Of a stretch of 64,000 nucleotides of DNA, positions 1,918 through 61,210 are shown one piece after another (positions within the stretch are counted from its first letter, which is position 1; each line of letters starts with the position of its first letter). The stretch is from positions 35,809,706 through 35,873,705 of the forward strand of contig NC_045139.1 of assembly GCF_008831285.2 (NCBI RefSeq), given 5' to 3'. The notes under the pieces are model-generated. The model was not told where the DNA came from. It saw nothing but the letters and a program-made list of their open reading frames with translations, and searched no databases. The stretch is from Nymphaea colorata (taxonomy: Eukaryota; Streptophyta; Magnoliopsida; Nymphaeales; Nymphaeaceae). The position numbers and the translations under genes are program-made.

Positions 1918-2595
1918 GTTTCTTCCCAAGATATTCGACAGGTTCCCAAATGCTGAAGGTTTTCTGTTTCTTCATGACACGACAATTCTCAACTACTGGA
2001 ACCTGCTTGGGGCAGACAAGAATAAGCTATGGATTACTGATAAGGCAATTCTTGATGACTGTTCAGATGTACTTTTTTCTCTACGAAAATCTTTGTAATA
2101 ACAGTCTGTCTGTTTCATCAGGTTCCTGAGTCCTGGAAGACCAAGTTTTCAAATTACAAAGACGCACCTGCATATTTGAAGGAAGGTGCCGAGATCCTGA
2201 GAAAGCTCATTGACACCCTTCCTGTTCATTTTCAAGTTAACTACAAGGAAAATGTGGGCAACGAAAAGTTTGTTGTCTGCACCTCAGATGTATTCTATGT
2301 TCCTCGGCGTTTTGTGGGTGACTTTGCTGACCTTGTGGGTCATGTTGGAGATCAGAAACTGCATCAGAAACTTGCAGTGCCAATGTTTTTCTTGGCAATG
2401 GATTCACCATCTAATTTCGACTCTGAAGCATTTAGGAGCATGGTTTACAGAACCGGCAAGGCATCCGATCCTTTGAGTTTCTATTCAGTGCAAGCTGCTG
2501 CTGTGCACCCTTGGACGGTGTCTGCTGATTCTGAGTTCATGAAGCTCATCAGAGCCATGTCTTCTGGTGACCCCCTTCTACTGGAACTGTTGTAA
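1918..2595 (+). CDS. STELLO-like glycosyltransferase (DUF288), last two exons, 5' partial
   Basis: These are the last two exons (1918-2044 and 2122-2595) of a homologue of plant STELLO proteins. Those are Golgi type II membrane proteins that associate with cellulose synthase and influence its assembly and secretion. The first exon follows a TTTCAG acceptor and encodes FLPKIFDRF, then GFLFLHDTTILNYWNLL, then LWITDK. The second starts VPESWK and continues through HFQVNYKE, AVPMFFLAMDSP and AVHPW to the family-typical end SSGDPLLLELL and a TAA stop. The frame is continuous across the junction, with 42 whole codons after a split codon. Two things are odd. The intron between the exons starts with GC (AAG/GCAATT) rather than GT. 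The acidic motif usually written as DDTILNYW in this family reads DTTILNYW here. The N-terminal three quarters lie outside the window or are absent. Family assignment is strong; whether the locus is functional is uncertain. Confidence 0.85.
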
Positions 2596-4337
2596 CATAT
2601 GGAACATCTACTAGCAGGAAAAGTGCTGGAGATGGTTTGGGCAAGTGGGTTCGGTTGAGAAATTCTTTTTGTAGATGGGTATGTATTGATTTTTGCAGGG
2701 AAACCTGTCTCTGTGAAACAGAAATTTTCTCATTTCTGGAATTGCCTGTATTAGATATGGAGCACTAGTTAATGGAAGAAAAATTTGTCCTCCATCTCTC
2801 GCTCCCATTTTGACATTATTGTTTTCTTAAGCTTCTATCTGTCATGCACAATTGTGGTGCGGACCCATTTTGGTCGCAGGCCATCATAATTGCTTGGCAG
2901 TACCACAACTGGTTGGGTCATACCTAACCCTTTTGAGAGTCTACCATGAAAACGTCTATCGACTGAAACTTAGGTTAACGTGGCTGCAGATTTGCCCGCA
3001 ATGGAAACTGTCTCGAATGGTAAGTAATGCCATTAACGAGGCTTCCAGACGGTAGACCTGAATCCAATTATGGTAAGCAGAAAATGATCCGTTAATAAAC
3101 ATCTGAGTAGTTCACATGTAAACATGCGAATCTTAAGCTAGTCCAGGTCCTGATTTTGTTTGCGACAAATCCGGCCCTGAATTTAAATCCAGATAAGCCG
3201 GACCCCATTGAGTTGGGCTTGGTAAAGCCAGGGCCAAACCCTATTTGGACCCGCTGACATCTCTGTTCTAGATGTTCTGTTTTCTTTCTATGGCAGACTT
3301 GTAGGAGCAAGAGCGAGAATAGCTAGGTTGGTACGCATTCAGACCAAAATGACCAATATGAAGAGTGTAGCTACCAAAGAAAGAACAAAAAACTGTAGAT
3401 ACACCGTACTACCTGTTCTTCGGCCTCTTTTATTCTTTTGTTGCGGATGAGGACTCTGCAACGCTCTCTCCCATCTATGATACAATTAAGGCACATTGAT
3501 CTGCTAACTAACGTTGAAACGACCGATCAATCGGATCCTTCATATGACAAGAGGCCGAAAATCCGTGAGGGAGATCCAATGAGACCAGTCGTCGTCATTC
3601 AGGCTGAAACGACGTCGCCGCGGGAACCCGCTACCTGTGAAAATGCATCTCTCAGTGAGCAAATCAAAACAGACGATGCTTCCGCAATCAACTCAAAGAT
3701 CGGTGAGCTTCAAACTATTTAAGTTGATGGAGCCCTAGAGATTCAACATGTGAGAGTGCAACTCCTGTATCACAAGAGAGGCCTACCCCAGGGGTTCTAG
3801 GTTGAATAATAACCAGAAGACATGGTACGCATGTATCTTATGTGTGGGCGATTATCAATGGAGGTTTTCATGCATGGTCATAAAAAATGAAAAAGAATTT
3901 CCTGTTCAATCCAACCACGTAGGCCATTAGCACTACACATTAGCATCACATAACTAGTTGTTGATGAAGCAATCTCCGCTTTACACTTGTACAAGTACTA
4001 ATAAAATAAATATAAACAGGTTTTGCTCACTAAACGATGGCGATAACCTGCTACGCTGTTAAAGTGACGACAGGATCAGTTCGTCTTAAAAATGCAAGCG
4101 TCATGAATTTATTCATCATCAATTTCAAATTTTGTGTACAGAGGAATTGTCAATTAAGCATGGATAATTTTGAAACAAAGAACCTAAAAGAAATCATATA
4201 TACAAATTTATGCTTGCATGGAGGACCTATGGAGCTCATTAAGGATCTATCGTACGAAAAACTACCGATACATGTAAACTGCTACTACAGCTTCGTCGAT
4301 CACAACTGGACTCAATAGCAGCTACGGGTGTAATGGT
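2596..4337. other. 3' flank of the STELLO-like gene and intergenic DNA
   Basis: The first 200 bp or so after the stop are probably 3' UTR. A worn repeat rich in GGGCC-type words lies at about 3140-3260. An open reading frame with relatively coding-like composition occupies 3438-3722 on the + strand (94 codons) and contains a GTGAGC that could act as a splice donor near 3703. I recognise no family in it and do not call it a gene. Nothing else was identified. Confidence 0.4.
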
Positions 4338-15656: not shown

Positions 15657-16718
15657 GTTGTATCTAATGTTCAAACTTGGCTAACATTTTGGTGCCAAAC
15701 AACTTTGGAACGGGTTATGAGCTCAAGTATGGACGAATGATTCATTCTTGCATCCAAGATCACAGAGTTTCAGACGGCTACTCTGCCATGGCCTCACTCC
15801 AAGCTATTGATAGCAGCAACGGCTCCAAGAAGACCAAGTTTGAGGCATTTAGTGGCTGCTTGTGGAAGGCAGTGGCGAAGAGTGTTAGTGGTGGGGAAGC
15901 TTGCAAATTAGGAGTGCTTGTAGATGGACGGTTGACATTGATAGATGATGTGAGATCAAAGGATGCAATGGCTATATATTATGGAAATGTGGTGTCACTC
16001 CCTTATAGTGAATTAGATGCCAATGAGTTAACTACTAAGCCATTGAGTTGGCCAGCTGACCAAGTACATGATTTTCTTAGGTCTATAGTAACCCCAGGCC
16101 ATTTTCAAGGGTTTGTGGATTGGATAGAAGCCCAAAGGCCACACATGATCTTACCTACTTCCCTATATAAGGGCACAATGGGAGGACCTTCATTTGCAAT
16201 ACCCTATGGGAGGCTCTTCCATTCCAACAAGCTAGATTTTGGGTGGGGAAGGCCAATTCTTGGCTCATGTTATTTCCCACGGTGTATGGACTCTGGCTAT
16301 GTTATGCCAATGCCGAGCCCGGCCACCAACGGGGATTGGGTTGTCTACATGCATCTCTGCAAGCACCAATTAGATATAGCGGCAGCTGAGCTACGCGATG
16401 TATTGCACCCACTTAATTTTGCGCTCCTCAAACTTCATGAGCAGTAGTTCATGCATGTGTTTGTGTGTGTATGTCTGTGTGTGTCGATGCTTGTCATGTC
16501 GAGCTTATGACAATATCTTGTCATTCTCTTATGGTGAATTAGTTGTCATCTAGTTATCGGGCTCGGAATCCAAAAAAACTGATAGTATATTTTGTTATTA
16601 TGCATAAATAAGAATGTTATATGCTTTTCTAAACTTTCATGCAAAATAAATTAAGGTTCCATGGCAAGCATGGCTCCAGTATGACAAGGGAGTAACAAAA
16701 CTATCAAAACCTGGCTTT

Positions 16719-23148: not shown

Positions 23149-24443
23149 TTAGTGCTCAAGTAATTTGAGAAGCGCTAAATTCAGTGGGTGTAATATATCA
23201 CCAAGCTCAGCTTCTACGGTGTCTAATTGGTGTTTGAAAAGATGCATGTAAACAATCCAATCCCCATTCCCAGACGGGCTTGGCATTGGCATTACATAGC
23301 CTGAGTCCAGGCCCCATGGGAAATAACAGGACCCAAGAGTTGACCTTCCCCAACCAAAATCTAGCTTGTTGGCTTGGAAGAACCTCCCACTGGAGATTGT
23401 CACAGAGGGTCCTTTCATATTGCCCTTGAATAGTAAGGTAGCCATTACAGAATGGGGTCTATGATCTTCCACCCAATCCACTAAACCTAAAAGATGATCT
23501 TTAGTTGCTGCAGGCATAAGAAAATCATGCACTTGGTCAGCTGCCCAACTCAAAGGGTTGCTGGTTAACTTACTGGAGTCTAATTCACCATAAGGGAGTG
23601 ACAAGACATTGCCATAATATCTAGCCATTTCATCCTTTGATCTAACACCATCTATCAATCTCGTCCGTCCGTCCACAACCACGCCCACTTTGCATGGTTC
23701 TCCCTTATCAGCACTTTCTGCCAATGCCTTCCACAAGCAGCCGCTAAATGCCTCAACCTTGGTCCTCTTGGTGCCATGGCTGCTAGCAAGAGCCTGGAGA
23801 GAGGCCATGGCTTCCGCCTTCATGTAGTAAATCCTGCCAACATATTCATGTAGTCTTGGCGTCTCGGGCAGCGTCGGCGGTACAACCATATATAGATCAT
23901 TAAGAGACTTGCCAGGCGATCCTGGCCAGCGCGGGCTGAGAAGAGATCGTCGAAAACTTGGAGTCATTGATATGGTGCCTGATGTGGTCATCTCTGCCCA
24001 TGCTACTAAAAACATGTTGGCCGAGTGGCCGTCTGAGACTCTGTGATCAAGAGTGCCAGACAGAACCATTGCTCCACATTTGAGCTCTGTTACCTGTTTC
24101 ATAATTACCGTGCACCACAATGCATGTTAGACGCATTTGAAAAGTTGGTAAAACCATCTGTGGGCTTGCAGTTTCTGCCTAAATATTTGATGGTGTATCT
24201 CTCTCTCTTACACCCACGTATTAGATGATATGAAAAACAAGTAAACATATTCTTAAAATGGAAAAAGGAAATGAGCTGAAAAAAAAGTGTCGTTCCCCTT
24301 AATTTTGAAACTGCTTTTTGCATTTAACCTTTCTAGTCTCTTACACTCATACCCACCTTTCTGTTTCTTTTCTTATTATTTTTTCATTCACGGTAACGTT
24401 GTTCACTATATGATTGGTAAATCGTAGGGTAGGGAACGGTCGG

Positions 24444-24475
<32 letters not shown>

Positions 24476-24891
24476 AAAGCTGACTTCACCTGGAGGCACA
24501 GAACCGAAGTTGCCGTTTTGGGCACAAGCTTTCCGGCCACGGAAGCATCCGGATGGTAAAGATCGAGCTTGAGGAGCTCTATTTCCCCATAAGCTTCAAC
24601 GAACTCGACGCCATTGTTGTTGCAGTGGAGCACCGGTTCACCTGTTGGGCTGGTGACGATCTCCCCAGCCAGAGGGTAGTAAGGAATGAGCAGCTTTGAC
24701 AAGCTTTTCTTGAGAGCGCCCATCATACAGTGAAACTTATAAGGTCTGATGGCGCTTGGCTTTTCATAGACAAAGAAGAAGCTGGGATGAAGGGGAGGGA
24801 GAAGCAAGTCTAGATTTGACAGAGGAAGCCATGATTCCGGCAGTGGCGTCTCTGCAGTGAGTAATTCCTTTCTCCTTACTTCAACAATGAA
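23149..24891 (-). CDS. BAHD acyltransferase D, nearly intact, start codon not found
   Basis: A two-exon BAHD gene: exon 1 from about 24891 to 24490 (donor CTCCAG/GTGAAG) and exon 2 24093-23149 (acceptor AAACAG). Exon 2 is fully open (314 aa plus TAA). It has VTELKCGAMV, the catalytic LDHRVSDGHS, VEAFSGCLWKAL, VVDGRTR, YYGNVLSLPYGEL, LDFGWGRSTLGSCYFPWG and GDWIVYMHL. Exon 1 gives ESWLPLSNLDLLLPPLHP, YYPLAGE and HCNNNGVEFVEAY. The pattern resembles coniferyl alcohol acyltransferases, cytosolic enzymes that esterify hydroxycinnamyl alcohols from acyl-CoA. The first 16 or so codons, including the ATG seen in C and E, are replaced by unrelated pyrimidine-rich sequence. The upstream frame is open to a TGA at 24,970-24,972 without an ATG, and the first internal ATGs lie mid-domain. 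It is either a recent pseudogene or a gene using an unrecognised upstream exon. Confidence 0.8.
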
Positions 24892-24968
24892 GGGAAGAAA
24901 AAGTTGGAGCGGGAGAAGAAGTGTCTTGACAAGGAACAGAGGAGAGGAGAGGAGAGAAGAGGCAATGG

Positions 24969-25943
24969 TTCATACAAGTTGGTCATATACTGGTGCATAT
25001 AAAACCAGGTGGCGTGTAGTGTTAAGGTTGTACGCCTCCATGTGTGCGCAAAGGTTGTACGCCTTCATGTGTGCGCAGCTTACGTACCGAGATGACGTTT
25101 TAATAATTAAAAAAAAAAAACTTGTTCTTTCTAGTCATGTCACTTTTTTATTTTCATTTTAATGTGGATGATTAAAAAAATAAAAGTTTAAAAAAGATAT
25201 TTGGTTTTCACAAATAAAAGGCCCACGTGGGCGGCCTCCAGTTGTAGAAGTCTTCTGTCAAACACTTAAAAAAAATATATATAACTTTTACTTATGATAA
25301 TAAAATAATAAAATGGAGATAAAAGGGGAAACCGTCGGTTTTAGTTTTAAGTATGGCAGGAAATGTTAGTAAGTATAGCTGACATCACTCATGTTTTAAT
25401 CACTTCAAATTTTTAAAAAAGAATGTTCTTTTTATTAAAAACACAAAATCTAATTTTTGAATCTAAATTGGTCCAAAACCATAGTTTGAAATCCAAATTA
25501 GATCCAAAAACTCAAATTCAAATCCAAATCATACTCATTTGCTTTTTCTTTTGACCAAAAAATTTCTTTTTAGAGGGCGATTTTAGTCTTTTTGGTAAAC
25601 AAGACTCATTTACCCCTCCTTTTAACAAAAAAACTTTTTTTTAGAGAATGATTTTGGTCTTTTTGGTGAACAATAAACATTTGTCCTTTTTTTTGACAAA
25701 AAAGCCTCCGTGGTTTTGTTCTTTTTTGTGGACAAGACTCATTTATCCTTTTTTTTTTTTACAAAGAACTTCTTTTTAAAGGGCGATTTTGGTCTTTTTG
25801 TTAAACAAGACTCATTTGTCCCTTCTTTTTTACAAAGAACCTCCTTTTAGAGTGTGTACTGGCTGGATGATACCATATGCTTTCTACAGTAAGGGGTCAT
25901 TGTCCTCTTACAATTTGGTGACAATCTAGACGATGTGTGAGGT
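24969..25943. other. Upstream of BAHD D; imperfect tandem repeats
   Basis: At 25,545-25,860 an imperfect unit of about 80 bp (CTTTTTGACAAAAAA, TTTTTAGAGGGCGATTTT, GGTCTTTTTGG, AACAAGACTCATTT) recurs about four times. Otherwise AT-rich with no gene. Confidence 0.6.
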
Positions 25944-34058: not shown

Positions 34059-35345
34059 TCAAATATATCTTAGCCCCATATGAGCTACATGTTTTGAAAA
34101 CAAGTGTTCAGATATTCCTTTGGTTAAGAGATCAGCCACCATATCATTTGTAGGCAAATATTCAACTGAGATTTCATTTTTCTCGATCATTTCATGAACA
34201 TAATGGTATTTCACCGTTATATGTTTACTCTTTGAGCTAACAGCTCCATTTTTCATAAGAGATATCGCTGCCTGATTATCACAGTATAGTTGGATCTGTT
34301 CATGAACAAGATCTAATTTCAAGTCTTTCAAGAACCGATTTATCCAGACAGCAAAAGTAGTTGCAACATTGCATGCTACATACTCTGCTTCCTGTGTGTG
34401 CTGAGCAACACATCCCTGTTTCTTACAGGACCAGGCTATCGCCCCACCTCCAAAGAGAAAAACATATCCTGAAGTGGATTTACTATCATCTTTGCAGCCT
34501 GCAAAATCTGCATCAGAATAGCAAACTAAAGTTAGCTCATCTGCTTGATAAAACAATTTTAGTCCTTTTGTTCTTTTAATATACCGGAAAATTCTTTTGA
34601 CTGCTTGCCAATGAGGCCATCCAGGATTACTTTGATAACGACTTACCAGACCGATAGGAAAACTTATGTTTGGTCTGATACAAAGCATTAAATACATCAG
34701 ACTACCAACCGCTTGTGTATATGGAACATTTAATTTTTGTTGTCCTTCACCAGGACAATCACTCATGCTTAAGTTTGCTCCTTTAGCTATAGGAGTCTCA
34801 ATTGGTTTGCAGTCTAACATACGACATTTCTTCAAGATATAATCAATATATCGTTCCTGGCTTAAACTCAGGTTTCTTGAGTTTCTATCTCGAGTGATTT
34901 TGATTCCTAATATATAGCATGCTTCACCCAAGTCCTTCATTTCAAAGTTTTTGTTTAGCCAAGTCTTCGTTTTGAGTATCATATCGTTATCATTTCCTGT
35001 TAGCAATATGTCATCAACATATAATGATAGAATACAGAAAAGGCTTCCACTTTTCCAAACATACACACAGTGGTCTAGTTGGTTTTCAACGAACCCAAGT
35101 TTTATAATTGCTTTGTGAAAAGCAAAATACCACTGTCTATGAGACTATTTCAGTCCATACAACGATTTATTCAACTTGTACACTTTGTCTTCTTTTTCCT
35201 TGATGACATATCCCTACGGTTGAGTCATATATATAGTTTCTTTTAACTCACCATTCAGAAAAGCAGTCTTCACATCCATCTGACAAATATCCAAGTCATA
35301 GAATGCCGCGACAGCCAAAATTATTCTGATTGATGCGAACTTTGC
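34059..35345 (-). pseudogene. copia reverse transcriptase and RNase H region
   Basis: Reverse transcriptase motifs are [13 protein letters not shown] and the catalytic LYVDDILLTGND. RNase H follows, with YSDADFAGCKDD, STSGYVF and QEAEYVA, and the polyprotein ends near HMGLRYI. Two in-frame TAG codons at 35214-35216 and 35145-35147 replace expected glutamines, the second in the LYGLKQ motif. A 1-bp loss near 35,348 separates this part from the integrase frame. Confidence 0.93.
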
Positions 35346-36745
35346 ATCGGCGAATAGGTCCCTGAGTAATCAATTCCTTCCTTTTGGGAAAAACCTTTCG
35401 CCACTAGTCTGACTTTGAATTTTTCAACTGATTCGTCAGTTTTATACTTCTTCCTTAGCACCCATTTACATCCAATCGGTTTTCTGTCATTAGGAAGATC
35501 TACTAATTCCCAGACTTTATTCTTTTCTATAGATTCAATTTCTTCATCCATAGCATTCACTGAATCCGACGATTCATGCGAGCTAACCGCTTCATTATAT
35601 GTCAGATTGTCAGACATTTCATCAATATCTGCTAAATAGCATAGCTCCTCTGCCAGATATACATGATAATCATTTAAATATGAAGGAGGAGCTCTAGGTC
35701 TTTTATGACCTGATAACGTCTGAGATGACGAGATATTCATATCAGTTGGTTTATTTCCTAACTGATCTTCAGTCGGTTCATTACCTGACTGTTCCTCAGA
35801 CGATTCCTGCTCAGTTGGTTCATTGTCAAAATGACCTCCAGTCGGCTCATTACCAGACTGATCTCCAGTCAGTTCATTACCAGACTGATCATCTGAATAA
35901 ATCAGATCATCCAGTGTATCGTTTCGATATTCTACTGGATCAAAATCTTTATTGTTGAGTTCTTCTATGAACTCTACATCTCTGCTTTCTATAAGTCTCA
36001 TAAATGAGTGATATAATCTGTAGCCCTTGGATCCTTTTGGGTATCCAATAAATATACATCTCACTGATCTGTTATCTAGTTTATCCAGTTTTGGATCTAG
36101 AATTTTCACGTGTGCTACAGATCTCCATCTCCTTAAATATCTTAGATTTGATTTTACACCAGTCCATCTTTCATAAAGAGTGATTGGGACTGCTTTGCAG
36201 GGCACTCGGTTTATTGTATACATAGTTGTTAACACAGCTTCAACCCAAAAGACTTTTGGTAATTGTGCTCCTGCCAACATGGATCTCACCATGTTTAAGA
36301 GGGTTCTGTTACACCTCTCAGCCACACCATTCTGTTGTGGTGTCATAGGCATTGTCTTTTGCCTATTAATTCCAAGGTCTTTGCAGTATTCGAGGAATTC
36401 GCTAGAAGTGTATTCTCCTCCTCGATCAGACCTTACAATTTTGATATTTCTTCCAAGTTGTCTCTCGACTTCATATTTGTATTCCTTGAATTTCTCAAGT
36501 GCTTCTGATTTATATATGATTAAGTATATGTAACCAAATCTTGAGAAGTCGTCAATAAATGTTATGAAATATAACTTGTCACTGTGAGTTTGGATCCTGA
36601 AAGGTCTACAGATATCAGTATGAATTATCTCTAATAATTCAGTGGCTCGAATTGCTTCAGACAGAAATGGTTTCCTTGTCATTTTTCTGTATACACATGA
36701 CTCGCATTTCGCAAAATTATTTATATTTATGTCAGGTATTAAACC
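35346..36745 (-). pseudogene. copia integrase region
   Basis: It includes KCESC of the zinc-binding part, the catalytic triad in HTDICRPF, DDFSRF and GVAERCNRTLL, and the C-terminal FIGYPKGSKGYRLY. The N-terminal W-H-x-R-L-x-H motif is WPERLSH, so one zinc ligand is lost. Between integrase and reverse transcriptase is a linker with five imperfect repeats of the type QSGNEPT (about 35,745-35,890). The end of this frame has the start of the reverse transcriptase ([28 protein letters not shown]). Confidence 0.92.
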
Positions 36746-40141: not shown

Positions 40142-41320
40142 TAATATATATATATATATCATTGGTCCATCCGAATGTCTTACAGACAACCCAAATCTGG
40201 TTGGTATTCCGGATTCATATGGGAGACAGCCGGACGGACGGATGGTTGGAGGAACACAATAACTAAATATATGTATGTATATAAGAACTGCGTTGGCACA
40301 CAAACACCTTGCAACTAAGTTGAGATGGCTCTTATGCTACTGCAAGGCCTTGTGCACAAAGAATTATGCGTCCGATGTAATATAACCGGAATGCCTCTGG
40401 TATGTACAAATGGGAGCATTTTAGGAAGATTTAAAAAAAAAGTAGCGAAAAAGTTTAAAGTTTAAAAAAGATATTTATTTTTAAAATCCTCAAAATACCC
40501 TAACTTCTCCTCCTTTTTTTTCAGCTCACTGTCTCATTTGGCAAAGGCTCTTATGTACTTCTACCAATGAATATTTGAACTATAATTGAGATGAAAATGT
40601 TAACGATCGGCTTCATCCAAGGGGCCAGAACTAAGCGGTGGCGGCGAAGCAAGACATTCCTGAAAGTTTAAAGTCTACGTTGAATTTTTTGAAAAGATCC
40701 TTTCATATTAAATGAGTAAAGAAAGATCTGCCCCACTAAAATTTGTGAAAGATATTCCTAAGATCTTTTTTTTTCGATCCGGTGCTGCCACAGACTTTAC
40801 CTTCCGGCAGAGAACTGCGGATGCACTTCTGGGCACCAGCTTTCTGGCGACGGAAGCATATGGATGGTGAAGGTCGAGGTTCCGGAGCTCGATATCTGCA
40901 TAAGCTTCAATGAACTCGACGCCATTGTTGTTGCAGTGGATCTCCGGTTCACCTGTTGGGCTAGTGACCACCTCCCCAGCTAGCGGGAAGTAAGGAATGA
41001 GCAGCTTTGACAAGGCTTTCTTCAGAGCGCTGATCATGGACTGAAACTTAAGGTGGACGTCAATCGGCTTTTCATAGACAAAGAAGAGGCTAGGATAAAG
41101 GGGAGGCAGCAGCAAGTCTAGATTTGATAAAGGAAACCATGACTCGGGCAATGGTGAATCTGCAGTGACTAATTCCTTTCTCCTAACTTCGACATCGAAC
41201 TCGCCATTATCTGCTGCATCAACATTATCGTTGACAGCCATGAGAGAGAGACAGTCGACAGACAGAGAGAGAGAGAGAGAGATAGATGTTGAGACTTGAA
41301 TTGATGTGAAAAAAAATCCA

Positions 41321-41575
41321 GAGTCTCGACCTCCAAAATAATACTCAATAATAACTTTGGCAGAGTATACTTAATAACAACTTAATAACAACTTGCTATT
41401 TTTAATAATAAAATATTACATGAACACGCAGAAGAGTCTCGACATCCAAAATGATACTCAATAATAACTTTGGCAGAGTATACTTAATAACAACTTAATA
41501 ACAACACCAACAAAATTCACAAAATGAAATTGCTATTTTTAATAATAAAATATTACATAAACACCAATAGTCTAA
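41321..41575. repeat. 113-bp tandem duplication upstream of BAHD C
   Basis: GAGTCTCGAC, CTCAATAATAACTTTGGC, AGTATACTTAATAACAAC and GCTATTTTTAATAATAAA occur in order from 41321 and again from 41434. The second copy has an insertion before GCTATT. Confidence 0.85.
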
Positions 41576-47754: not shown

Positions 47755-48090
47755 TCAAGATACAAAATTCCACCTCAAACTTGAATTGTAATGAAAATTT
47801 CAATTGTAGTTTTTCTTTGTCTTTTACAGTTTGCAATTTTGATACTAGAATGAAAAATGCTGTGGTTGATAAAATAAGAATGAAAATTCTAGAATTGATT
47901 AATTAAAACCATTATGACATCTGCTTTAAAGAAAAACATTTAAAAAATTAAAATTTTGGAGTTATAATTCTACCCACTAACAATTCTTGAATTTTGATTG
48001 AAGAATAAGTTTATAATAAAATGAAATCAAAATTTTTGGTTTGAAAACACTATTCCCGTTACATAAAAAGTAAGAATTTTAATTTTGGAA
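47755..48090. repeat. Dispersed 330-bp repeat, copy 1 (partner at 60,888-61,210)
   Basis: Shared words in the same order include CACCTCAAAC, AATGAAAATT, AATTCTAGAATT, AATTAAA.CC.TTATG and TGAATTTTGATT. No inverted termini were resolved. Confidence 0.65.
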
Positions 48091-48583
48091 TTCCAAAATT
48101 ATTGGACCAACAATTAATGCAAAGGCAATCTTAATTCATCCTCTTCCGCCGTTCTTACTCCCTATTTTTTCTAAACACATCCATCAGCAATTTTTTTTCT
48201 TTTACATCATCTTCCTCTTTTACATTGTCGCCACTAAGGGCCCGTTTGATTGCCCGGGTAAAAAGGGAGAAACAGGTGAAATGTGTACGGGTGGATGAAA
48301 TTTCACCCACCCATCCCACGACTTATCAAACGTCGTAAAACTTCACCAGTTTCTCTTCTTTTGACCGGCTGAAATTTCACCCGCTCGAAAGTCCGAGCTA
48401 TGAGGTCGGACTTTCGAGCGGTCACCCGCTCCATTTTTTTCTTCCCTCGTTTCTTTCACTCATCTCCTCTCCAGTCGACGGCACCCTCGACGACCTCGCA
48501 ATCCTTTTGACGCCAACCCTTCCTCCAGTCGACGGCAACCCTCGTCTTCCTCGCTCTCACGATCCAAGCTCTGCTCTGCGCTC

Positions 48584-48835
48584 CAACGCTCTCATCTGCC
48601 CTCCTTCCCATTTGAAGCCCATCTTCCTCTCTGCCCTCCAACGCAGCAACGCTCTCATCTGCCCTCTTTCCCATTTGAAGCCCATTTTCCCCTCTGTCCT
48701 CCAACGCAGCAACGCTCCCATCTGCCCTCCTTCCCATTTGAAGCCCATCTTCCCCTCTGCCCTCCAATGCAGCAACGCTCCCATCTGCCCTCCTTCCCAT
48801 TTAAAGCCAATCTTCCCCTCTGCCCTCCAACGCTC
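48584..48835. repeat. 63-bp minisatellite, four units
   Basis: Units begin CAACGCTCTCATCTGCCC and contain TTCCCATTTGAAGCCCAT. The length is a multiple of three, so both strands stay open (a 21-residue repeat either way). I treat those frames as a by-product. Confidence 0.9.
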
Positions 48836-49345
48836 GTGCCTTCTTGTCTCCCGGCTGAGCTAACTTTAATCTCGTCCCTTTTCTGTTAATTTCTTGTATC
48901 TTTGGAATTTTGATTCGTGTTGTTTTTTGTTTCTCGCATTTTTCTATAGAACAACAGGGAACAATAATGGTAATGCTTATATTCCTATCTGTTTCCATGG
49001 ATCACTTGTTTGGTAAGTTTGAATGGGCTGAAGTCGTCTACTCAATTGTTTATCCATGATTTGACTCTCTCTTCCTGTGAAAACCAGATTCAGCCGCTAC
49101 CAACATATAATTTGACAAAATCGATAGATCTTTTAGTAGATCTGCTATTGATACAAGAAATCGATAGATCTCTTGTTTTGTTGACAGCAGCTTGGTGTTG
49201 ATTTTCATTCCTGCTATTATCTTGATGAGGGAAACATTTTGTTGAGTATATTAGAAGTTCAGACCTGCTTTGCAACATGACATTGGATTATTTTGAATTT
49301 TGGAATTAAGTTAATACAACTTTAGTCGTAGTTTTGAAAGATCAT

Positions 49346-49734
49346 GTTTCAATTTCTTCCCACATCAAATTGGGGAAGAGAAGAAAACAAAAAAGTACTA
49401 ACAATTCTAAAAAAGTCTCTTCATTTTTCTACCTTGTGCATCAAACAAGATTAAATTTACCATGTTAAATTCTTCCTGTGCATCAAACAGAGCCTCAGAT
49501 TGGAAGAGGAGAAATTTCATCCTCTAAATTTTTCCAGAAAAATTTACCATGGTACAGGATGAAATTTTTCCCTCTTCCAATCTGAGGGTCTGTTTGATGC
49601 ACAGGAAAAATTTAACCTGGTAAATTTAATCTTGTTTGATGGACAAGATAGAAAAATGAAGAGACTTTTTTCATAACATTTAGTAGTTGTTGTTTTTCTT
49701 TTCCTCCCCACTTTGACGTGGAAAGAAATTGGAA
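49346..49734. repeat. Large foldback (about 195-bp arms)
   Basis: The left arm has TTTCAATTTCTTCCCAC, AAAAAAGTCTCTTCATTTTT, CATCAAACAAGATTAAATTT and CCTCAGATTGGAAGAGG. The right arm carries their inverted complements in reverse order (CCTCTTCCAATCTGAGG at the centre). It is probably a nested MITE; transcripts would form a long hairpin. Confidence 0.8.
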
Positions 49735-50083
49735 GATATCTTCCTATTGAATGTGAACTACAATTTTTATAGTTGGTTATAAAGTGCTCTATCGATTAGT
49801 CAGAAACAGAAATAATCAGCTTACTGATGATGTAATGCCAATATGCCATCAATGGGATCCTCTAAAAAGTCAGAAACAGACACATTTTCTCAGCATTTCT
49901 ATCACTTGAAGTGAATTTCTCAAATCAAATTATCAGAGCTTCTGTGTGGAACATTGACTACAACTTAAGAAGAACAGTGAAACTCAAACATGGCGTAGCA
50001 GTTGCTATATCAATAAAAACTACTATCGAACCAACAATATACAAAATACAACTGAAAATATTAACAAAGGCCACAAAGAGAGC

Positions 50084-50536
50084 CTAGCATAGGCAGACAT
50101 CAGGCGAACATCTAGACCCAGGAACTCCCATTTTGAATGTGACCTTCTTGAAGTCTCCTAGTCTGCATAGTGCTGCAATCACAGTGTTGTATGCAACCAC
50201 ATCTGGTTTGCACCAGAATTGCTTCATTATGTAGAATGCCATCAACGCTTCCTTCACCAGGCCTTCCTCCCCCAGCACCTTGATGACAGCATTTATAGTA
50301 TTCGTCTTCACCAGCTCGTTTGGGACACCCCTTTTGCTCATTTCGTGAAGAAATCGCCACAGCTTCTTCAAGCAGTTCGCTTTTGCCAACACGTAGGCCA
50401 TCTCTCTGCAAGTGATGTCAGTGTGGGAGAAACCTCCCTCTGATTCAACCCAAGTGTAGAAGTCTAATGCTGAAGTGATAGATAAGGAACATTTAAGAAA
50501 CATACATGCCCAGTAAGAAGCTTGCTCATTTTCCAC
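50084..50536 (-). pseudogene. Pentatricopeptide-repeat (PPR) protein gene fragment
   Basis: An open stretch of 150 codons covers PPR-like sequence: ALDFYTWVESEGGFSHTD, CREMAYVLAKANCLKKLW, INAVIKVLGEEGLVKEALM, the repeat-typical CKPDVVAYNTVIAALCRLG, and a degraded end (GVPGSRCSPDV). In full genes of this type many 35-residue repeats follow, and the proteins bind organellar RNA. Here the repeats stop after about three and the end is altered, so it is a fragment. It lies inside the 4.2-kb element, antisense to the hydrolase exon. Confidence 0.8.
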
Positions 50537-51157
50537 AACAAAGGATTATTTAATGCATCACGAAGGGCAGCATAAGAAGTTTTAATTTTTTTTTATTAGT
50601 GGTGTTTCTGTTTCAAAAGCATTGTAACATTTGTATCAGCTATTATAAGCTTTGGACCTTTGCAGTCATGCCAGTTCCCTTGAGTTATTTCAACTCCTGA
50701 CTCTCATTCTCTGTGCATAAAAGTGCAAATTTGTTCTTCCTTCCTATTGTACCCATTCTTCTTACAGAAAATTCATGACACTAACTCAATTGAATCCTGG
50801 CAGATTCGTCATGTTCTTCTAGTGAGCTATTCCAGAGGAAACTAGGCATAACAGACATAGATGCATGCAGAAGGAGTTCATGCTAGTGCTTTTCTCTCTA
50901 GGTCCATACATTCTGCAATTAGGAACATTGATCCTTGTGCTTTTCTGCTTATTAGATTGCAATAATCCGCATATCTGACATATATCTTTCTACAACTTTG
51001 ATGCACAATTGTTGAGTTGTTGGTTCCGTATGTTGTCAGTATTAGTTATCTGATGGTCATCTCCTCTGTTCTGAAATCCTATTTCTTTTATGTAGATGGC
51101 ACCTCTTTTTCTCCCTCACACATTGTTTGTTGTTTCCTTTCTGGTATGAATTTTCAG

Positions 51158-51367
51158 GGGTATAGTAGACAGCAAGGTGCCTATGTTTCTATCCATCAAG
51201 ATATGAATATTGGATTCGGAAGCTGGGAAGTTAATCCTATGGATCTAGATAACCCATTTCCTAACGGTGAAGCTTCTGTTCACCTCTGGCAGGGGGATGA
51301 CGATGGCCTGGTTCCAGTATCTCTGCATGCTACGTTTCTGAAAGGAGAATACCCAACTTCTGGTTGA
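51158..51367 (+). pseudogene. Alpha/beta-hydrolase gene exon fragment
   Basis: It follows a good acceptor (AATTTTCAG). The sequence GYSRQQGAYVSIHQDMNIGF, then GSWEVNPMDLDNPFPN and SVHLWQGDDDGLVPVSL matches the late part of plant alpha/beta-hydrolase-fold proteins, where GDDD includes the acid residue of the triad. The exon runs into a non-homologous tail (KGEYPTSG, stop), and the region that should carry the catalytic histidine is absent. Captured fragment. Confidence 0.8.
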
Positions 51368-51856
51368 AAAGAGAAAACCCAACTTCTGGTACCTGCACCT
51401 TGGTTAACCCTGTACCCATTTGACGTAGCTTCAGACGTTTTTAGTTGAAACAATCTGGTCATGAGCCTTCCCATGCTCAGCTTATGCATCAAACAAAGGA
51501 CAGGGAGACAGTACACAAGAATTGTTCAAGTACCACAAGAAAGGCTACAGGAACAAAGTTTTACAACCCATTGTTGAGCAACTGCTAAACTTGCAAAGAT
51601 AATGTAAGACCACCGATAGAGCTCATTTGATTTAGCAGAAGATGACAGGAAAAGACACGGCTGTCTCAAACCTCCCAAAGAACAACTGAAAATCAAATGG
51701 ATATGGGAAGACGAACCTTTTTCTTCAATAGAAACTCACGTTTAATCTTCCAATCTTCAATAAAAAAATGTATACATGTGTACGATAATCAAATACCCCC
51801 CTCCCTCCCCAATTAAAAAGAAAACTAAACAGGAAGAAAAGGCAGAAAGGGAAAAA

Positions 51857-51955
51857 AACCAGGAGTTCATAGGGATCGACCACCTCTGGACCCAAAACCT
51901 TCAAGCCCTTCTCCAGTTGTCTCTTGGCCAGCCACTCCTCCCCGTCCAATTTCAC
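51857..51955 (-). pseudogene. Possible captured first exon
   Basis: On the minus strand an ATG at 51955 opens MKLDGEEWLAKRQLEKGLKV, then LGPEVVDPYELL, after a GC-rich leader-like block (51,975-52,290). It reads like the start of a real gene, but I cannot name the family and no clear downstream exon follows. It could be a third captured fragment. Confidence 0.3.
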
Positions 51956-52464
51956 ATCCCAACAGCCCTAATTTGAAGAACCACGGCGATGGCTGGAGGC
52001 AGAGTGGTGGCCGTGCACGGCGAGCGATCAGGCATGCGGTAGAAGAGGAAGGAGAGAGCGACAGAGGAGAGGAAGGAGAGAGCAGTAGGGCATCAGAGAA
52101 AGGGAGGGAAGAAAGGGAGGGAATCAGAGGGAGAAAGGGAAAAAGCGTACCGGCGGTGGAGCGGAGAGGCAGCGGCGACGGTGCAACCTCCTTCCACTCT
52201 GGTGTGATGTGAGAAGGCTCGAGGGAGGAGGAGCTGCGGTGCGATGTGAGCTGCCGAAGGAGGTCGTGCGCTGAGGAGGGAGGTCGAGCGCCCGAAACAG
52301 GAGCTCGGACTTTCGAGCGGGTGGAATTCCACCCGCTCCCTTTTGGGTTAAACGGGTGGAATTTCATCCCGTTTGACGGGATTTCAATCGGACGGGTGAA
52401 ATTTCACTCGCCCGTACCAATTTCTCCTCCTCCGATGGATTTCAACCGCCCATCAAACGGGCCC

Positions 52465-53463
52465 TAAGGGTGAACAACGAGCCGAGCAACTCGAGCTCGG
52501 CTCGTTTAAACTCGACTCGAAATCGAGTTCGAGCCGATTATTTCAATAAACGAGCCGAGCTCGAGCTCATTTTTTCGACTCATTTTTTTATCGAGTCGAG
52601 CTCGAGCTCATTTTTCGACTTGTTTTTTTAGTCGAGCCAGCTAGACTCGGCTCGAGCAAAAGCAATACTTATTTTGATTTTTTCGTTTTACGTTTCATTT
52701 CATCCCGTGCATTCTCTCTCCCCTCTTTCTTCTTCTTCTTCCACGCTTCATCCCCTGCGTTCTCTCCCTGCTCTTTCTTCTTCTTCTTCCCTCTTTCTTG
52801 TTCTTCTCCTTCGCTTTTTTTTTATTTGTTGTTTTCTCACCTCTCTCTTCACTGGTTTTCTCCTTCATTCTCATAAGCCCCCACCGGCCACCGATTCTTC
52901 AACATCAACATTAAGGTATACACCCTCTTGCTCTCGGCTGCTCTTATCCCTCTACTCTCTTCTACTCTCCCCTTCTCTCTCTCCCTCTCTGATCTCACGG
53001 TCTCTCTCGTTTTGCCAAAGGAGGCTTTCTGAAACCCTCTCTTGGGCGAGGGTTTTGCCCAAGCGAGGGTTTCCCTCACTCCCTGGATCGGGCGAGGGTA
53101 TTTGCCCAAATGTGGGTTGCGAGGGTTTTAGAAACCCTAGCTTGAGCGAGAGCCCCTTAACCATTGCAGGGCTTAAGGTGGATTGTGGGTGGGGGAGAAT
53201 CATGTGAAAATGCCAATGGTTGGTGTTGGCAGTGGTGAAGAGAGTGGTGGGGGTGGACCGGTGGTAGATCTCCATGATTTCAAGGGGAAGCAGGATTCAG
53301 TTGAGCCTAGTTTGTCGACTTCGAGCTCGACAAATTCTGCCAAGCCGAGCTGGAGTTGCTTTGGACAAGCTCGAGCCGAGTTCGAGCTCGAAGATTTAGT
53401 AGCCAAGCCGAGCTCGAGCTGGCTGAACTCGAGCTCGACTCGGCTCGCTCGTGTTCACCCCTA
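52465..53463. mobile_element. GAGCTCGA-rich hAT-like element, copy 4 (999 bp)
   Basis: It starts TAAGGGTGAACAACGAGCC and ends GCTCGTGTTCACCCCTA, near-inverted. The outer 200 bp on each side are the family's CTCGAGCTCG-rich sequence. The middle (about 52,670-53,290) is different: pyrimidine-rich leader-like sequence, then GGGCGAGGG / GCGAGGGTTT repeats. This may be foreign sequence captured by the element. Its left edge coincides with the right TAA of the Harbinger-like element. Confidence 0.6.
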
Positions 53464-55499
53464 GTGGCCACATAGGAAAGTGATAGTGATGTTTTTTGAG
53501 TTTAAACAGATTGAGAGTGTCTTCTTTTATGAAAATTAACTCTGAGCTAAGCTGAGGATCAATTATAAATAAGTAGAATGAGTATTTCATCATACCATTC
53601 ATACATATTTGAGAGTCAAAGCTCACACCCTTTTTCCATCTCCCCAAAATACCAGACATGCTTTATTGTTTCGATGTGACTCCTTCGCGATACTTCAACT
53701 TGCATATTTGTACATCTTTTTTTTGCTGTACAGGGAGTTGATGTCACAAAAACTGGAAATGAAGACTTGGCTACTTGTTACCCCTGCTCCATCCATTGGA
53801 CCAATCTCCTTGGAGTTTAAGCTAGCGTTAAGTTAGTGGTTTGTTTTCTATTAACTTTCAATGATTGAACTTTTTATTTAAATTATATGAAAAACATATG
53901 GGACTTAATTAAAAAACATAGTTGATGAACCCTCCACATTGGTGATAGTGTATCTGGCTCTTACTCCTTTTCACTGGCCTGTCAACATGTTGTCTTACAC
54001 TGAAGATTTCCTACTTACGAAAACTAGAAATTTGAACAATTAAAACCTATTCTAAATAGGTGCAAGTAGGGATGTATTCACATGTTTGGTTTTGAATTTG
54101 GATTTGTGGATTTGAATACAAATGAAAAAATGTCATATCCAAATCTAAATCGCTTTCACAATACTAATCCAATCTGAATCTGATTCTTACATTTATATCC
54201 AAATCTGATATCCGAATTTGGAGCCAGATCCATTCGATTTTCAAAATGTAAGAATATTAGATGATTTGAATCCATATTTATGTACACCCGAATTTGAATA
54301 TGATCGGATGTCATTTCTTAAATTTGAATCAGACCTGATTTTTTAATCGGATATCGAACTTTTTTTTCATATCAATTTTTTGGAAATATATGATCGAATA
54401 TATTGACATGCAAGACACAAAGGTAGCAACCTAAAACACTGATAATCAATAGAACAAGAGCATGACCTAATAGAGGTCATAGAACAAAACGAAAAAGAAT
54501 GAGAAAATTAACAAGGACAGCCGGCTGAGTCCTACTATATGTAATGAACTCTTGATCCGATCTTATGAACTTGAAAACGTGACTGCATACAAATAGAGGC
54601 TTACGCATTTTCAAGCGTCTGCACTTCTTGTGCCTTTGTCAAGCTATTTGCTAGTGGAGAACGAGGACAACAGTGGCGGCGGGGGCGGAGGGAGGTGTGG
54701 GCAATTGCCTGCACAGGCTCGCAAAAAAATGATTATTTTTATATTGAAATTTTACAGCTGCTTTTGGTATGTGCGTTTTCCAGCAACACATTGCCGACGT
54801 ACTCTCCACACGTCGGTACAAGTTCTCCTTTCATCTATACCTCATTCTTAAATGTCGGTAATAGCCGTTTTACCAACGTCTTCCACGCATCTGTCATAGT
54901 TTTCACTGACATTTTCTTCACCAACTACTTTCTTAGATAACAGTAAAAGTTATACGAATGTTTGTTTCTATTTTGTCGATTTTTTTCCACTGGTCGGTAA
55001 ATCCACCCTTTTTTTTAATATCCACCAATGCCAAGGTTGGAATTTCTGTATTTTTCGGCTCTCATTTTTAAAATTTTTAATATATTTTTTTCAAAAAAAA
55101 ATGTGTTTTTTTTTGTTATGCATGGTCTCACCTAGTCCAACCGAGGAGGTAAAATTTGGTGCAGATAACTGAACTATCAAAACCAAAACTTTTCCTCCCC
55201 TGTAGATCTTCTCAAGCAATTCATTTTTCTGCCAAGAACAATCTTAATAAAATTTTGATTTAATTGGAAACTCAGTCGTCCGAAACAAGAACAGTTCAAC
55301 ATATTCCTAATTTTTTCAACTAATTATATTTCCCTGGCATTTTTCCAAACTCAATAACATGCAATCTCATGGTTGTACATTTTGAATACATCTAAGCACA
55401 ATCACATAAATATATATACATATATAGGTAGAAAACAAGTCTAAGAACAATCACATAAAAAATATATATAGAACAACCGTGGTTGTACATTTACACCAG
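53464..55499. other. Intergenic DNA downstream of BAHD E
   Basis: It contains the element at 54,067-54,410 and AT-rich sequence. A near-tandem copy pair (GGTTGTACATTT, AACAATCACATAA) lies at 55,370-55,495 just beyond the E stop. No gene was found. Confidence 0.5.
54067..54410. mobile_element. MITE-like element, GGATGTCAAT family, copy 3 (diverged)
   Basis: It starts TAGGGATGTATTCACATG and ends ATATTGACA. The flanks TGCAAG (left) and TGCAAG (right) suggest a short target duplication. The interior is GAATTTGAAT/ATCCAAAT-rich. Confidence 0.5.
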
Positions 55500-57555
55500 C
55501 TAAAATGTAGCTCCGCCACGGCAGATAGGTGAACTGGAGCTCATGAGATTGGCTAACTTGAGTGGCTCTAATATATCACAAAGCTCAGCTTCCACCATGT
55601 TGAGTTGGTGGTTGAAGAGATGCATGTAAACAACCCAATCTCCGTCCCCGACGGGGCTCGGCATTAACATAACATAGCCCGAGTCCACGCCCCATGGGAA
55701 ATAACAAGACCCAAGGATTGGCTTTCCCCAGCCAAAATCTAGCCTGCTGGGTTGGAAAACCCTCCCATTGGAGACTGCAAACGATGGTCCCTCCATAGTG
55801 CCTTTGTACACTAAGCTAGTCATGAGTTGATGTGGTTTATGGGCTTCCACCCAATCCACTAACCCTAGAAAATGATCTGTGGTGACTCTAGACTCAAGAA
55901 AATCATGTACTTGGTCAGCTACCCAACTCAAGGGGTTACAAGTTAACTCCTTGGCTTCTGATTCACTATAAGGGAGTGACAACACATTTCCATAATATCT
56001 AGCCATTGTATCCATTGATCTCACATCATCTACCAATCGCGACCGTCCATCTATAATCACTCCCATCTTGCAAGTTTCCCCATCTCCAGCACTCTTTGCC
56101 ATTGCCTTCCACATGCAGCCGCTGAATGCTTCAAACTTGGTCCTCTTAGTGCCATGGCTGCTGCCAGCAAGAGCTTGGAGAGAGGCCATGGCTTCCGCCT
56201 TCATGTAGTAAATCCTGCCTGCGTATTCGTGTGCTCGGGGTGTGTAGGGCAGTGCTGGTGGTGCAACCCTGTATAGATCATTGAGAGACTTGTCCGGCAA
56301 TCCCAGCCGGCGCGGGCTAAGAAGGGAGCGTCGGAAAGTTGGGGCTGCGGATATGGTGCCGGATGTGGTCATCTCTGCCCAAGCATCTAAAAACATCTTG
56401 GCGGAGTAGCCGTCTGAGACTCTGTGATCCAGAGTGCAAGAGAGAACCGTTCCTCCGCACTTGAGCTCAGTAACCTGCTCCAGATTAGCCGTGCATGCAC
56501 TATGATATTGTTAACCACATCTGGAAAACTAAGTGCAACCAATTTATGTGTGAAAATTTGTAAGGCTCCAAACATATAATTTGCACACGAGTGAGGGTAT
56601 GGCCAATCTTGAATATATATATATATATATATTCATTAAGTCTTGTTCATGAAAGGCAGCTGCCCGGTGGATTTTATCAGGAGGCTGTTAGTGAATCAAA
56701 TCCAATGGATATCATTGGGCAGCTGTTAGGGTTGAAATTCAGTTCTATCTTGAATATATATATATATATATGTGTGTGTACAAGATAGAACTGGATTTCA
56801 AGTTCCTTGTTCCTTTAAGATTTTTATTGTGGAAGCAACAGTTGGAAAAGAAAAACGTGAAGAGATGAAAATTAGGTGAAATGTGAATTGAACTAAAAAA
56901 ATGAGGCAAAAGGATTAGTCGGCTTCACCTACAAGCAATAGCTCACTGTAAAGGTTAAGGGGCACCAGTGTCCGTCAGATTTCAAGAAAATTTAAAATTT
57001 ACAATGAGTTTTTTGTTTTGAATTTTTTTTTTTTTTAATGTCCCTGCAGATCAACCCTCTTAAAACTTGTCAAGGCCCTCCCGGAATTAAATTTTTGTTC
57101 GGGCTCGCGTTCACCTGAAGGCACAGAACTGCTGTTGGCCTCTTGGGCACCAGCTTTCCGGCGACGGAAGCATCGGGATGGTGAAGGTCGAGGTTCCGGA
57201 GCTCGATATCTGCATAAGCTTCAATGAACTCGACGCCATTGTTGTTGCAGTGGATCTCCGGTTCACCTGTTGGGCTAGTGACCACCTCCCCAGCTAGCGG
57301 GAAGCAAGGAATGAGCATCTTTGACAAGGCTTTCTTCAGAGCGCTGATCATGGACTGAAACTTAAGGTGGATGTCAATTGGCTTTTCATAGACAAAGAAG
57401 AAGGTGGGATAAACGGGAGGCAGAAGCAAGTCTAGATTTGATAAAGGAAGCCATGACTCTGGCAATGGTGAATCTGCAGGGACCAATTCCCTTCTTCTAA
57501 CTTGAACAGAGAAATCGCCATTATCTGCCTGTTCAACATGACCGTTGACAGCCAT
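55500..57555 (-). CDS. BAHD acyltransferase E, intact, coniferyl alcohol acyltransferase-like, 471 aa
   Basis: Two exons, 57555-57115 (147 codons, start MAVNGHVEQADNGDFSVQ) and 56474-55500 (324 codons plus TAG). The intron ends CTTCAG/GTGAAC and GAGCAG/GTTACTGAG. All BAHD landmarks are present: ESWLPLSNLDLLLPP, FPLAGEVV, HCNNNGVEFIEAY, VTELKCGGTVLSCT, the catalytic LDHRVSDGYS (His and Asp of HXXXD), FEAFSGCMWKAM, GVIIDGRSRL, YYGNVLSLPY, LDFGWGKPILGSCYFPWGVD, SGYVMLMPSP and GDWVVYMHL. The overall pattern is closest, from memory, to coniferyl alcohol acyltransferases, which use acyl-CoA in the cytosol to esterify monolignol-type alcohols on the way to phenylpropene volatiles; the substrate here is inferred. 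The C terminus is about 14 residues longer than in paralogues (MSSSSPICRGGATF). This is the only member with start, stops, splice sites and motifs all intact. Confidence 0.93.
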
Positions 57556-57657
57556 GAGGGAGAGAATTATGGAGAGCCAGGAGAGGGGCTGTGCAAACAA
57601 GGAGGGAGAGATGTAGAGAGAGAAACAGAGTTGTGACTCTTGGGTATATATGTCTGG

Positions 57658-60887: not shown

Positions 60888-61210
60888 TCACCTCAAACCG
60901 GAATTGGAATGAAAATTCGGCTGCTAGTTTCTTTTTGTGTTTGATTGCCCATAACTTTGGTTGCAGAACTAAAAATGATGTGTTTGATACAACATGAATT
61001 AGAATTCTAGAATTAATGAATTAAAGCCGTTATGGCATGTGCCCTAAAACAAGATGAAAAATTATAAAATTTTGAAATTCATAATTTCACTCTTAGGGTA
61101 GAATCATAATTCTGGAATTTTGATTCAAGAATGAGCCTACGATTCCGGAATCAAAAGTTCTTTTGATAATGCAATTCTCATTTCATCAAACACTATTATT
61201 CACATTTCCT
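60888..61210. repeat. Dispersed 330-bp repeat, copy 2
   Basis: Partner of 47,755-48,090, with the shared words listed there, for example AATTCTAGAATTAAT and AAAGCCGTTATGGCATG. Confidence 0.65.

Follow-up and report, generated by a model that had tools for sequence, protein, structure and literature searches.

Gene capture by transposable elements of the PIF/Harbinger superfamily has been described in a small number of plants. For grapevine PIF elements transduplication was reported in 2008 (Benjak et al., PMC2528002), and for maize and rice gene-carrying Pack-PIF elements have been described together with the fusion of neighbouring insertions (Gisby and Catoni 2022, PMC8903248). Beyond the fusion of neighbours an undiscovered mechanism may exist, according to the relevant part of a 2026 review (PMC13317346), and how cut-and-paste transposons acquire unlinked gene pieces is an open question. 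In the literature collection that was searched, no paper combined Nymphaea colorata with transposable elements and Harbinger, and Pack-PIF elements were treated in the maize and rice report only. Here, a stretch of 64,000 nt of Nymphaea colorata DNA (contig C2, NC_045139.1, positions 35809706-35873705; genome of 408 Mb in 783 contigs), referred to as the window, was analysed with respect to a 4,227-bp element at window positions 48238-52464; related loci are denoted by L numbers and contigs by C numbers. The element is best explained, with a probability of roughly 85%, as a non-autonomous gene-carrying PIF/Harbinger element (Pack-PIF) that originated from the fusion of two family members. A preliminary description of this DNA had regarded gene capture as less well documented for PIF/Harbinger than for Mutator-like and Helitron elements; the passages on grapevine, maize and rice in the reports cited above do not support novelty in this respect. 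The capture as such is already known; what the genome adds is a collection of likely intermediates that is unusually complete.

Ends, target site and family of the element

The element has perfect 13-bp inverted ends with TAA outside each of them. The left terminal inverted repeat, GGGCCCGTTTGAT, is located at 48238-48250 (+) and the right one at 52452-52464 (-), and the two copies of the TAA target-site duplication are found at 48235-48237 and 52465-52467. With up to one mismatch allowed, GGGCCCGTTTGAT was found exactly twice in the 64-kb window, namely at these two positions, with 0.02 hits expected by chance and two hits in none of 100 shuffles. Three inverted repeats also back the pairing of the ends; they measure 37, 35 and 26 nt, and the 26-nt repeat spans the termini. 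The inverted termini with a TAA duplication that had been noted in the preliminary description were recovered in this way at both outer borders.

The right copy of the TAA duplication at the same time represents the first three bases of a hAT-like element, TAAGGGTGAACA...TGTTCACCCCTA (52465-53463, +), which served as the insertion target. The right 8-bp target duplication of this hAT-like element, GTGGCCAC, is located at 53464-53471, and its left counterpart, GTCGCCAC, severed by the insertion, was found 4.2 kb from the hAT-like element at 48227-48234, directly before the left TAA. The two copies agree at seven of eight positions, for which the chance at a given place is about 0.0004 (hand calculation). 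Three relatives of the hAT-like element were fetched, and perfect 8-bp duplications were present in L048 and L049 while L047 showed the start only. Since the 8-bp duplication of the hAT-like element is split by 4.2 kb, the two flanks very probably adjoined each other originally, positions 48238-52464 together with one TAA having been gained at the TAA with which the hAT-like element begins. There is strong support for the location of the 4,227-bp element within this terminal TAA.

Scoring in the genome searches covered the best candidates, with 40 of 221 (5′-end), 150 of 487, 40 of 310, 40 of 538 (junction, see below) and 40 of 395 candidates (joined flanks). The right flank is repetitive, and matches began at query base 149-151, corresponding to the TAA, in 22 of 53 rows, the rows of the window itself being outside these 22. 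Among the best 40 of 395 candidates the joined flanks gave no uninterrupted match that would represent an empty site, and, the window excepted, no row extended beyond the last 19 bases of the left flank, a few rows starting at query base 132-147. Within the left flank, positions 47847-48068 resemble window positions 60965-61190 at 70%.

The first 363 bp of the element yielded 68 match rows among the best 40 of 221 candidates, including the window and second pieces of one locus. Both ends could be paired for 15 relatives, one of which (L020) was set aside as ambiguous because a second pair of ends is located inside the stretch. In 13 of the 14 cleanly paired relatives the flanking triplets were identical (TAA in eight, TTA in two, and TGA, TAG and CCA; strand as fetched), TAA or TTA accounting for 10 of these 13. 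Ten of the 20 loci of one set remained unpaired (L009, L013-L017, L021, L024, L026 and L027, with TTA/TTC at L016), lacking a clean second end in the stretch examined, and L041 showed one end only. As a search proposed in the preliminary description had anticipated, the members of the family have the same ends and differing interiors. At L020 an extra pair of ends, GGCCACGTTTG...CAAACGTGGCC with TAA/TAA, was observed at 1753-3265, beside or within the family member there.

One relative, L023 (3658 bp, CCA/CCA), contains a transposase in broken frames, with matches to DDE_Tnp_4 (E=6e-14) and Plant_tran (E=7.3e-10) in a Pfam scan that covered three open reading frames. Its match to the window element reaches 80% in an alignment of 152 columns covering the 5′-end, and 91% in one of 129 columns situated close to the 3′-end of the window element's left part. 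On the basis of this transposase and the common end regions, the family therefore belongs to PIF/Harbinger, and the window element, as judged from its ends and relatives, is a member of it. Its target duplication of 3 bp, mostly TAA or TTA in the family, and its terminal inverted repeats of the GGGCC..GTTTG type, a motif that we take to be a mark of PIF/Harbinger, are consistent with this placement. Autonomous PIF/Harbinger elements typically also have a second open reading frame with a Myb-like domain. As had been stated previously, no transposase is visible in the window element, neither in the list of its open reading frames nor in the three frames that were scanned. Two other superfamilies were considered. 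A Mutator-like element (Pack-MULE), for which a target duplication of about 9 bp is typical, does not agree with the duplications of 3 bp, and a Helitron, which has neither inverted ends nor a target duplication, does not agree with the 13-bp inverted ends and the 3-bp duplications.

Fusion of two family members

Judged by alignment with its relatives, the window element was shown to be two family members fused with their 3′-ends facing each other, the inner termini of both being lost. The left part (48238-49554, +) was identified by alignment with L010, L011 and L012 as an L012-type element that extends from its 5′-end until about 40 bp before the 3′-end, the remainder with the terminus being absent. 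The elements L010, L011 and L012 stand alone with lengths of 1.3-1.4 kb, and the left part is 96.5% identical to L012 over 1262 ungapped positions with 67 gapped columns (3.5% difference). It contains a 63-bp tandem repeat (48579-48893, +), the copy number of which varies among relatives, and no host gene was recognised in it. The right part (49555-52464, -), here called element R, lost its 3′ terminus at the fusion. Its sister L037 on contig C8 (2933-5077 of that locus; 2145 bp) possesses both ends flanked by TTA/TTA, and R matches it in opposite orientation with 98.8% identity over 1899 ungapped positions. At the junction, ACCATGGTA/CAG (49546-49557), the left 3′ region is joined at about position 49555 to the inverted right 3′ region, and no host DNA was recognised between the halves.

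The captured DNA is confined to element R. Among the best 40 of 538 candidates scored, the junction was spanned by the window only, and the fused form is, as far as seen, single-copy. In addition, the left element was absent from the examined stretches around the close matches to the PPR gene piece of R (at least 82% over most of the query; one on C8, one on C5 and two on C1). It had been considered in the preliminary description that the two ends might belong to separate elements; this is correct in part, as the ends derive from two members that lost their inner termini at the fusion, and the cargo is located in the right member only.

Either the fused unit would have moved here whole, or two members would have inserted at one and the same TAA and then have been fused on the spot; these two routes are about evenly balanced. 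In the case of fusion in place, an arrangement TAA-L-TAA-R-TAA would have been followed by a later deletion of the facing termini, and the fused unit would never have moved as a whole. This course of events falls just short of an even chance: the fused form occurs once in the scored matches, the left and the right part each stand alone elsewhere, and nothing but the two inner termini is missing, with no recognised host DNA in between; on the other hand, two insertions at one TAA are required, and a single insertion gives the identical outer TAA as well.

Composition and origin of the cargo

The cargo of element R is a mosaic of several sources that was captured at the DNA level. Its first component is a fragment of a PPR gene on the minus strand, for which PPR_2 was detected at 50084-50545 with E=2.3e-16, and a frame of 153 amino acids is open in the window. 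The captured fragment spans 49804-50471 (-), with a coding piece at 50098-50471 and downstream pieces at 49804-50091. Its presumed source is L039:3929-5404 on contig C1 at 11.203 Mb, which has an open frame of 492 amino acids (PPR_2, E=2.6e-53) and to which the pieces are 93.5-93.9% identical (6.1-6.5% difference over ungapped positions). Two stretches of the parent are absent from the PPR copies of the window, L037, L038 and L040 alike; neither stretch has GT-AG borders, and one is coding. Changed residues and a 12-bp gap are likewise common to all four copies. These shared deletions, residues and gap therefore indicate one capture. L038 (C5, TAA/TAA) and L040 (C1, CCA/CTA; the PPR parent lies about 110 kb away) carry PPR cargo only, and both copies hold in-frame stops. 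Synonymous and non-synonymous differences of the window copy amounted to 3/2 versus L037, 5/3 versus L038 and 8/15 versus the parent, counts that are too small for a verdict on selection.

The second component is a captured alpha/beta-hydrolase-like fragment (50580-51343, +), which comprises presumed intron sequence, an acceptor-like AG at 51156-51157 and a part of the last exon. Its presumed parent is L042 on contig C1 (C1:14338184-14339237, minus strand; 97.2-97.7% identity over ungapped positions). The window exon matches the last open stretch of this locus, and an upstream exon on the same strand matches Abhydrolase_6 with E=1.5e-5 and 26.2 bits, the curated cut-off being 26.3. Both exons on C1 presumably belong to one gene, and the name alpha/beta-hydrolase-like derives from the upstream exon, which scores just under the Pfam cut-off. 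The minus-strand PPR fragment, the plus-strand hydrolase exon with its splice acceptor and their derivation from two unrelated host genes had all been proposed in the preliminary description, and they are borne out by the presumed parents, both of which are located elsewhere on C1.

Between and behind these two fragments four further pieces were assigned. Filler piece 1 (50476-50589, -) is 95% identical to positions 4028-4142 of the C7 locus L041, and filler piece 2 (51650-51694, -) is 100% identical to positions 3039-3083 of the same locus and colinear with filler 1. A third fragment (51363-51653, +) shows 97.9% identity to C4:18519228-18519517, with near-copies at C6:17762280 and C6:17787237, and a 26-bp direct repeat (51339-51390, +) lies across the seam between the hydrolase-like and the third fragment. 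The remaining part (51691-52464, -) stems from an L044-type element (L044 380-1932, TAA/TAA), of which the 5′ half is present, with 99.3% identity at 51691-51967 and 79% at 51964-52464. Over ungapped positions the hydrolase-like pieces of the window differ from their source by 2.3-2.8%, the C4 piece by 2.1% and the L044 piece by 0.7%, values that do not imply a clock. In the window, fillers 1 and 2 flank the hydrolase-like and C4 pieces. At L041 (C7:3190000-3199000) the two colinear filler matches are 0.95 kb apart within 3039-4142, and a family end is present at 4644; the locus may be the donor or another carrier.

Each of the five seams at which two sources meet is abrupt, and overlaps of about 3 to 10 bases were found at three of them, which suggests template switching during repair. 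According to the mechanism proposed here, the PPR piece would have been captured first and the other pieces later, these being pasted in via template-switching repair of breaks inside the element, and transposase would have been supplied in trans by relatives of the L023 kind. Alternatively, the cargo could have been gained solely by neighbouring insertions, with two elements flanking a gene and moving together with it, and without any template switching. This is the published model for Pack-TYPE elements (PMC8903248), and the distance of about 110 kb between L040 and the PPR parent as well as the nature of the window element itself, a fusion of two members, speak for it. It is nevertheless unlikely as the sole route, in view of the fact that the pieces of R are short and match two places on C1 that are 3 Mb apart, C4 and C7, without termini between the pieces. 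A retro-copy origin from spliced RNA, to which the two parental stretches missing from the PPR copy might point, was rejected as highly improbable, because the missing stretches have no GT-AG borders, one of them is coding, and the hydrolase-like piece retains presumed intron sequence and the acceptor; this retained sequence and the gap borders are also the basis for capture at the DNA level. Two intact host genes with unrelated short elements on either side are equally improbable despite the open 153-amino-acid PPR frame, as each piece is a shortened copy of a longer gene located elsewhere and the hAT target duplication brackets the entire 4.2 kb.

The cargo of the family members fits a stepwise build-up: L038 and L040 carry PPR only, in L037 PPR is accompanied by hydrolase sequence, and L045 carries neither. 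L045 is cargo-free, 790 bp long and flanked by TAA/TAA, and its halves are joined at the PPR edge. L037 apparently arose by deletion from the fuller R, because only a part of the contiguous C4 piece is kept in it. Tentatively, and with somewhat less than even odds, this one genome preserves the steps towards a multi-gene carrier, from L045 as vehicle via the PPR-only elements L038 and L040 and the multi-fragment elements L037 and R, extended by template-switching repair, to the fused unit of the window.

Several observations weigh against the interpretation as a fused Pack-PIF with stepwise acquired cargo. A second copy of the fused unit was missing from the scored matches (150 of 487, 40 of 310 and 40 of 538 candidates), so that its movement as a whole is conjectural. 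The right end of L037 differs by 2.4% over the last 164 bases compared to 1.2% over most of R, the flanking triplets of L040 (CCA/CTA) are unequal, and the copies of the hAT duplication are not identical at all eight positions. Two of the five seams show no overlap and contain 4 and 19 bases without an assigned source, the 19 bases being situated within the 26-bp repeat, and the longest seam overlap is a T-rich run. The hydrolase exon (from 51158, +) has no Pfam match of its own, and neither has its parental counterpart. Finally, L045 could be a deletion derivative and not an empty vehicle.

A second kind of cargo, a fragment of a CAF1-type ribonuclease gene, was found in L025 (E=8.5e-16). Its presumed parent is an open exon on C3 (88% at the protein level, 94% at the DNA level over 333 bp), and short partial copies (26-39 amino acids matched, 67-77%) are present at eight further loci. 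Four of these eight are located within about 0.25 kb of family 5′-ends (C3:3186117, C8:20322174, C1:8832107 and C9:3341920). The CAF1 capture in L025 and relatives therefore indicates that capture is recurrent in this family. Altogether the CAF1 piece was observed at nine places (L025 4372-4626, C3:3186441, C8:20322584, C12:5991009, C1:8831801, C9:3341614, C5:4789350, C1:8294352 and C1:213382), five of them near family ends, which was read as an amplified second capture. Among 203 open stretches of at least 55 amino acids in 14 relatives, 108 were scanned against Pfam (all of L018, L019, L020, L022, L025 and L028 and 8 of 13 of L044), and in these only CAF1 in L025 passed E 0.001. An open reading frame similar to Mpv17/PMP22 at L018 3465-3833 (-) had E=0.021, below the cut-off, and was left uncounted.

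Some matches occur in pairs that lie 15-25 kb apart on one contig and score the same or nearly so (C8:24460338/C8:24479204, C1:7595080/C1:7610294 and C6:17762280/C6:17787237), which would represent either local hops or segmental duplications. Elsewhere in the window, BAHD acyltransferase-like open reading frames (15668-16447, 23149-24969, 40708-41370 and 55500-57657) form a local cluster around the insertion, with what we take to be the DFGWG motif at three of these places, and long open reading frames at 34059-36745 (-) resemble, by eye, copia-type integrase and reverse transcriptase.

Comparison with known systems

The window element shows the features of a Pack-PIF, as no transposase is visible in it and it has host gene fragments inside, the presumed parents of which are located elsewhere. 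For element R, copies with the same ends and cargo were found in addition (L037 with TTA/TTA, and L038 and L040 with PPR only), which speaks for mobility of R after capture. The single window locus alone changes little, and it is the family that supplies, within one genome, a succession of stages together with their sources, seams and relative divergences, so that the steps are testable. If the stepwise interpretation is true, the order and the mechanism of capture could be read directly, and patch repair as well as the fusion of neighbours would build Pack-PIF elements.

In the relevant sections of the report on maize and rice (PMC8903248), Pack-PIF elements are likewise non-autonomous, with PIF-type ends, host gene fragments and fusion of neighbours as a step of growth. 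The window element differs in the 3′-to-3′ inverted orientation of its fusion, in its mosaic cargo from unlinked sources with intermediates, and in the plant concerned; in a maize/rice PIF example given there, the added fragments have lengths of 163 and 58 bp. As portrayed in the sections on Pifvine-3 (PMC2528002), grapevine PIF elements also contain exon and intron sequence, some of which is common to several copies; that family has long extra 5′ regions and is defined by its transposase, in contrast to the window element, which has none. A piece of a PPR gene is carried by Cactavine-5 of grapevine, which, from the account in the same paper (PMC2528002), is a CACTA element with a transposase open reading frame and one captured gene. 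Pack-MULEs of rice and Pack-CACTA elements of Arabidopsis, as far as the accounts drawn on here describe them, are likewise non-autonomous carriers of gene pieces and belong to other superfamilies.

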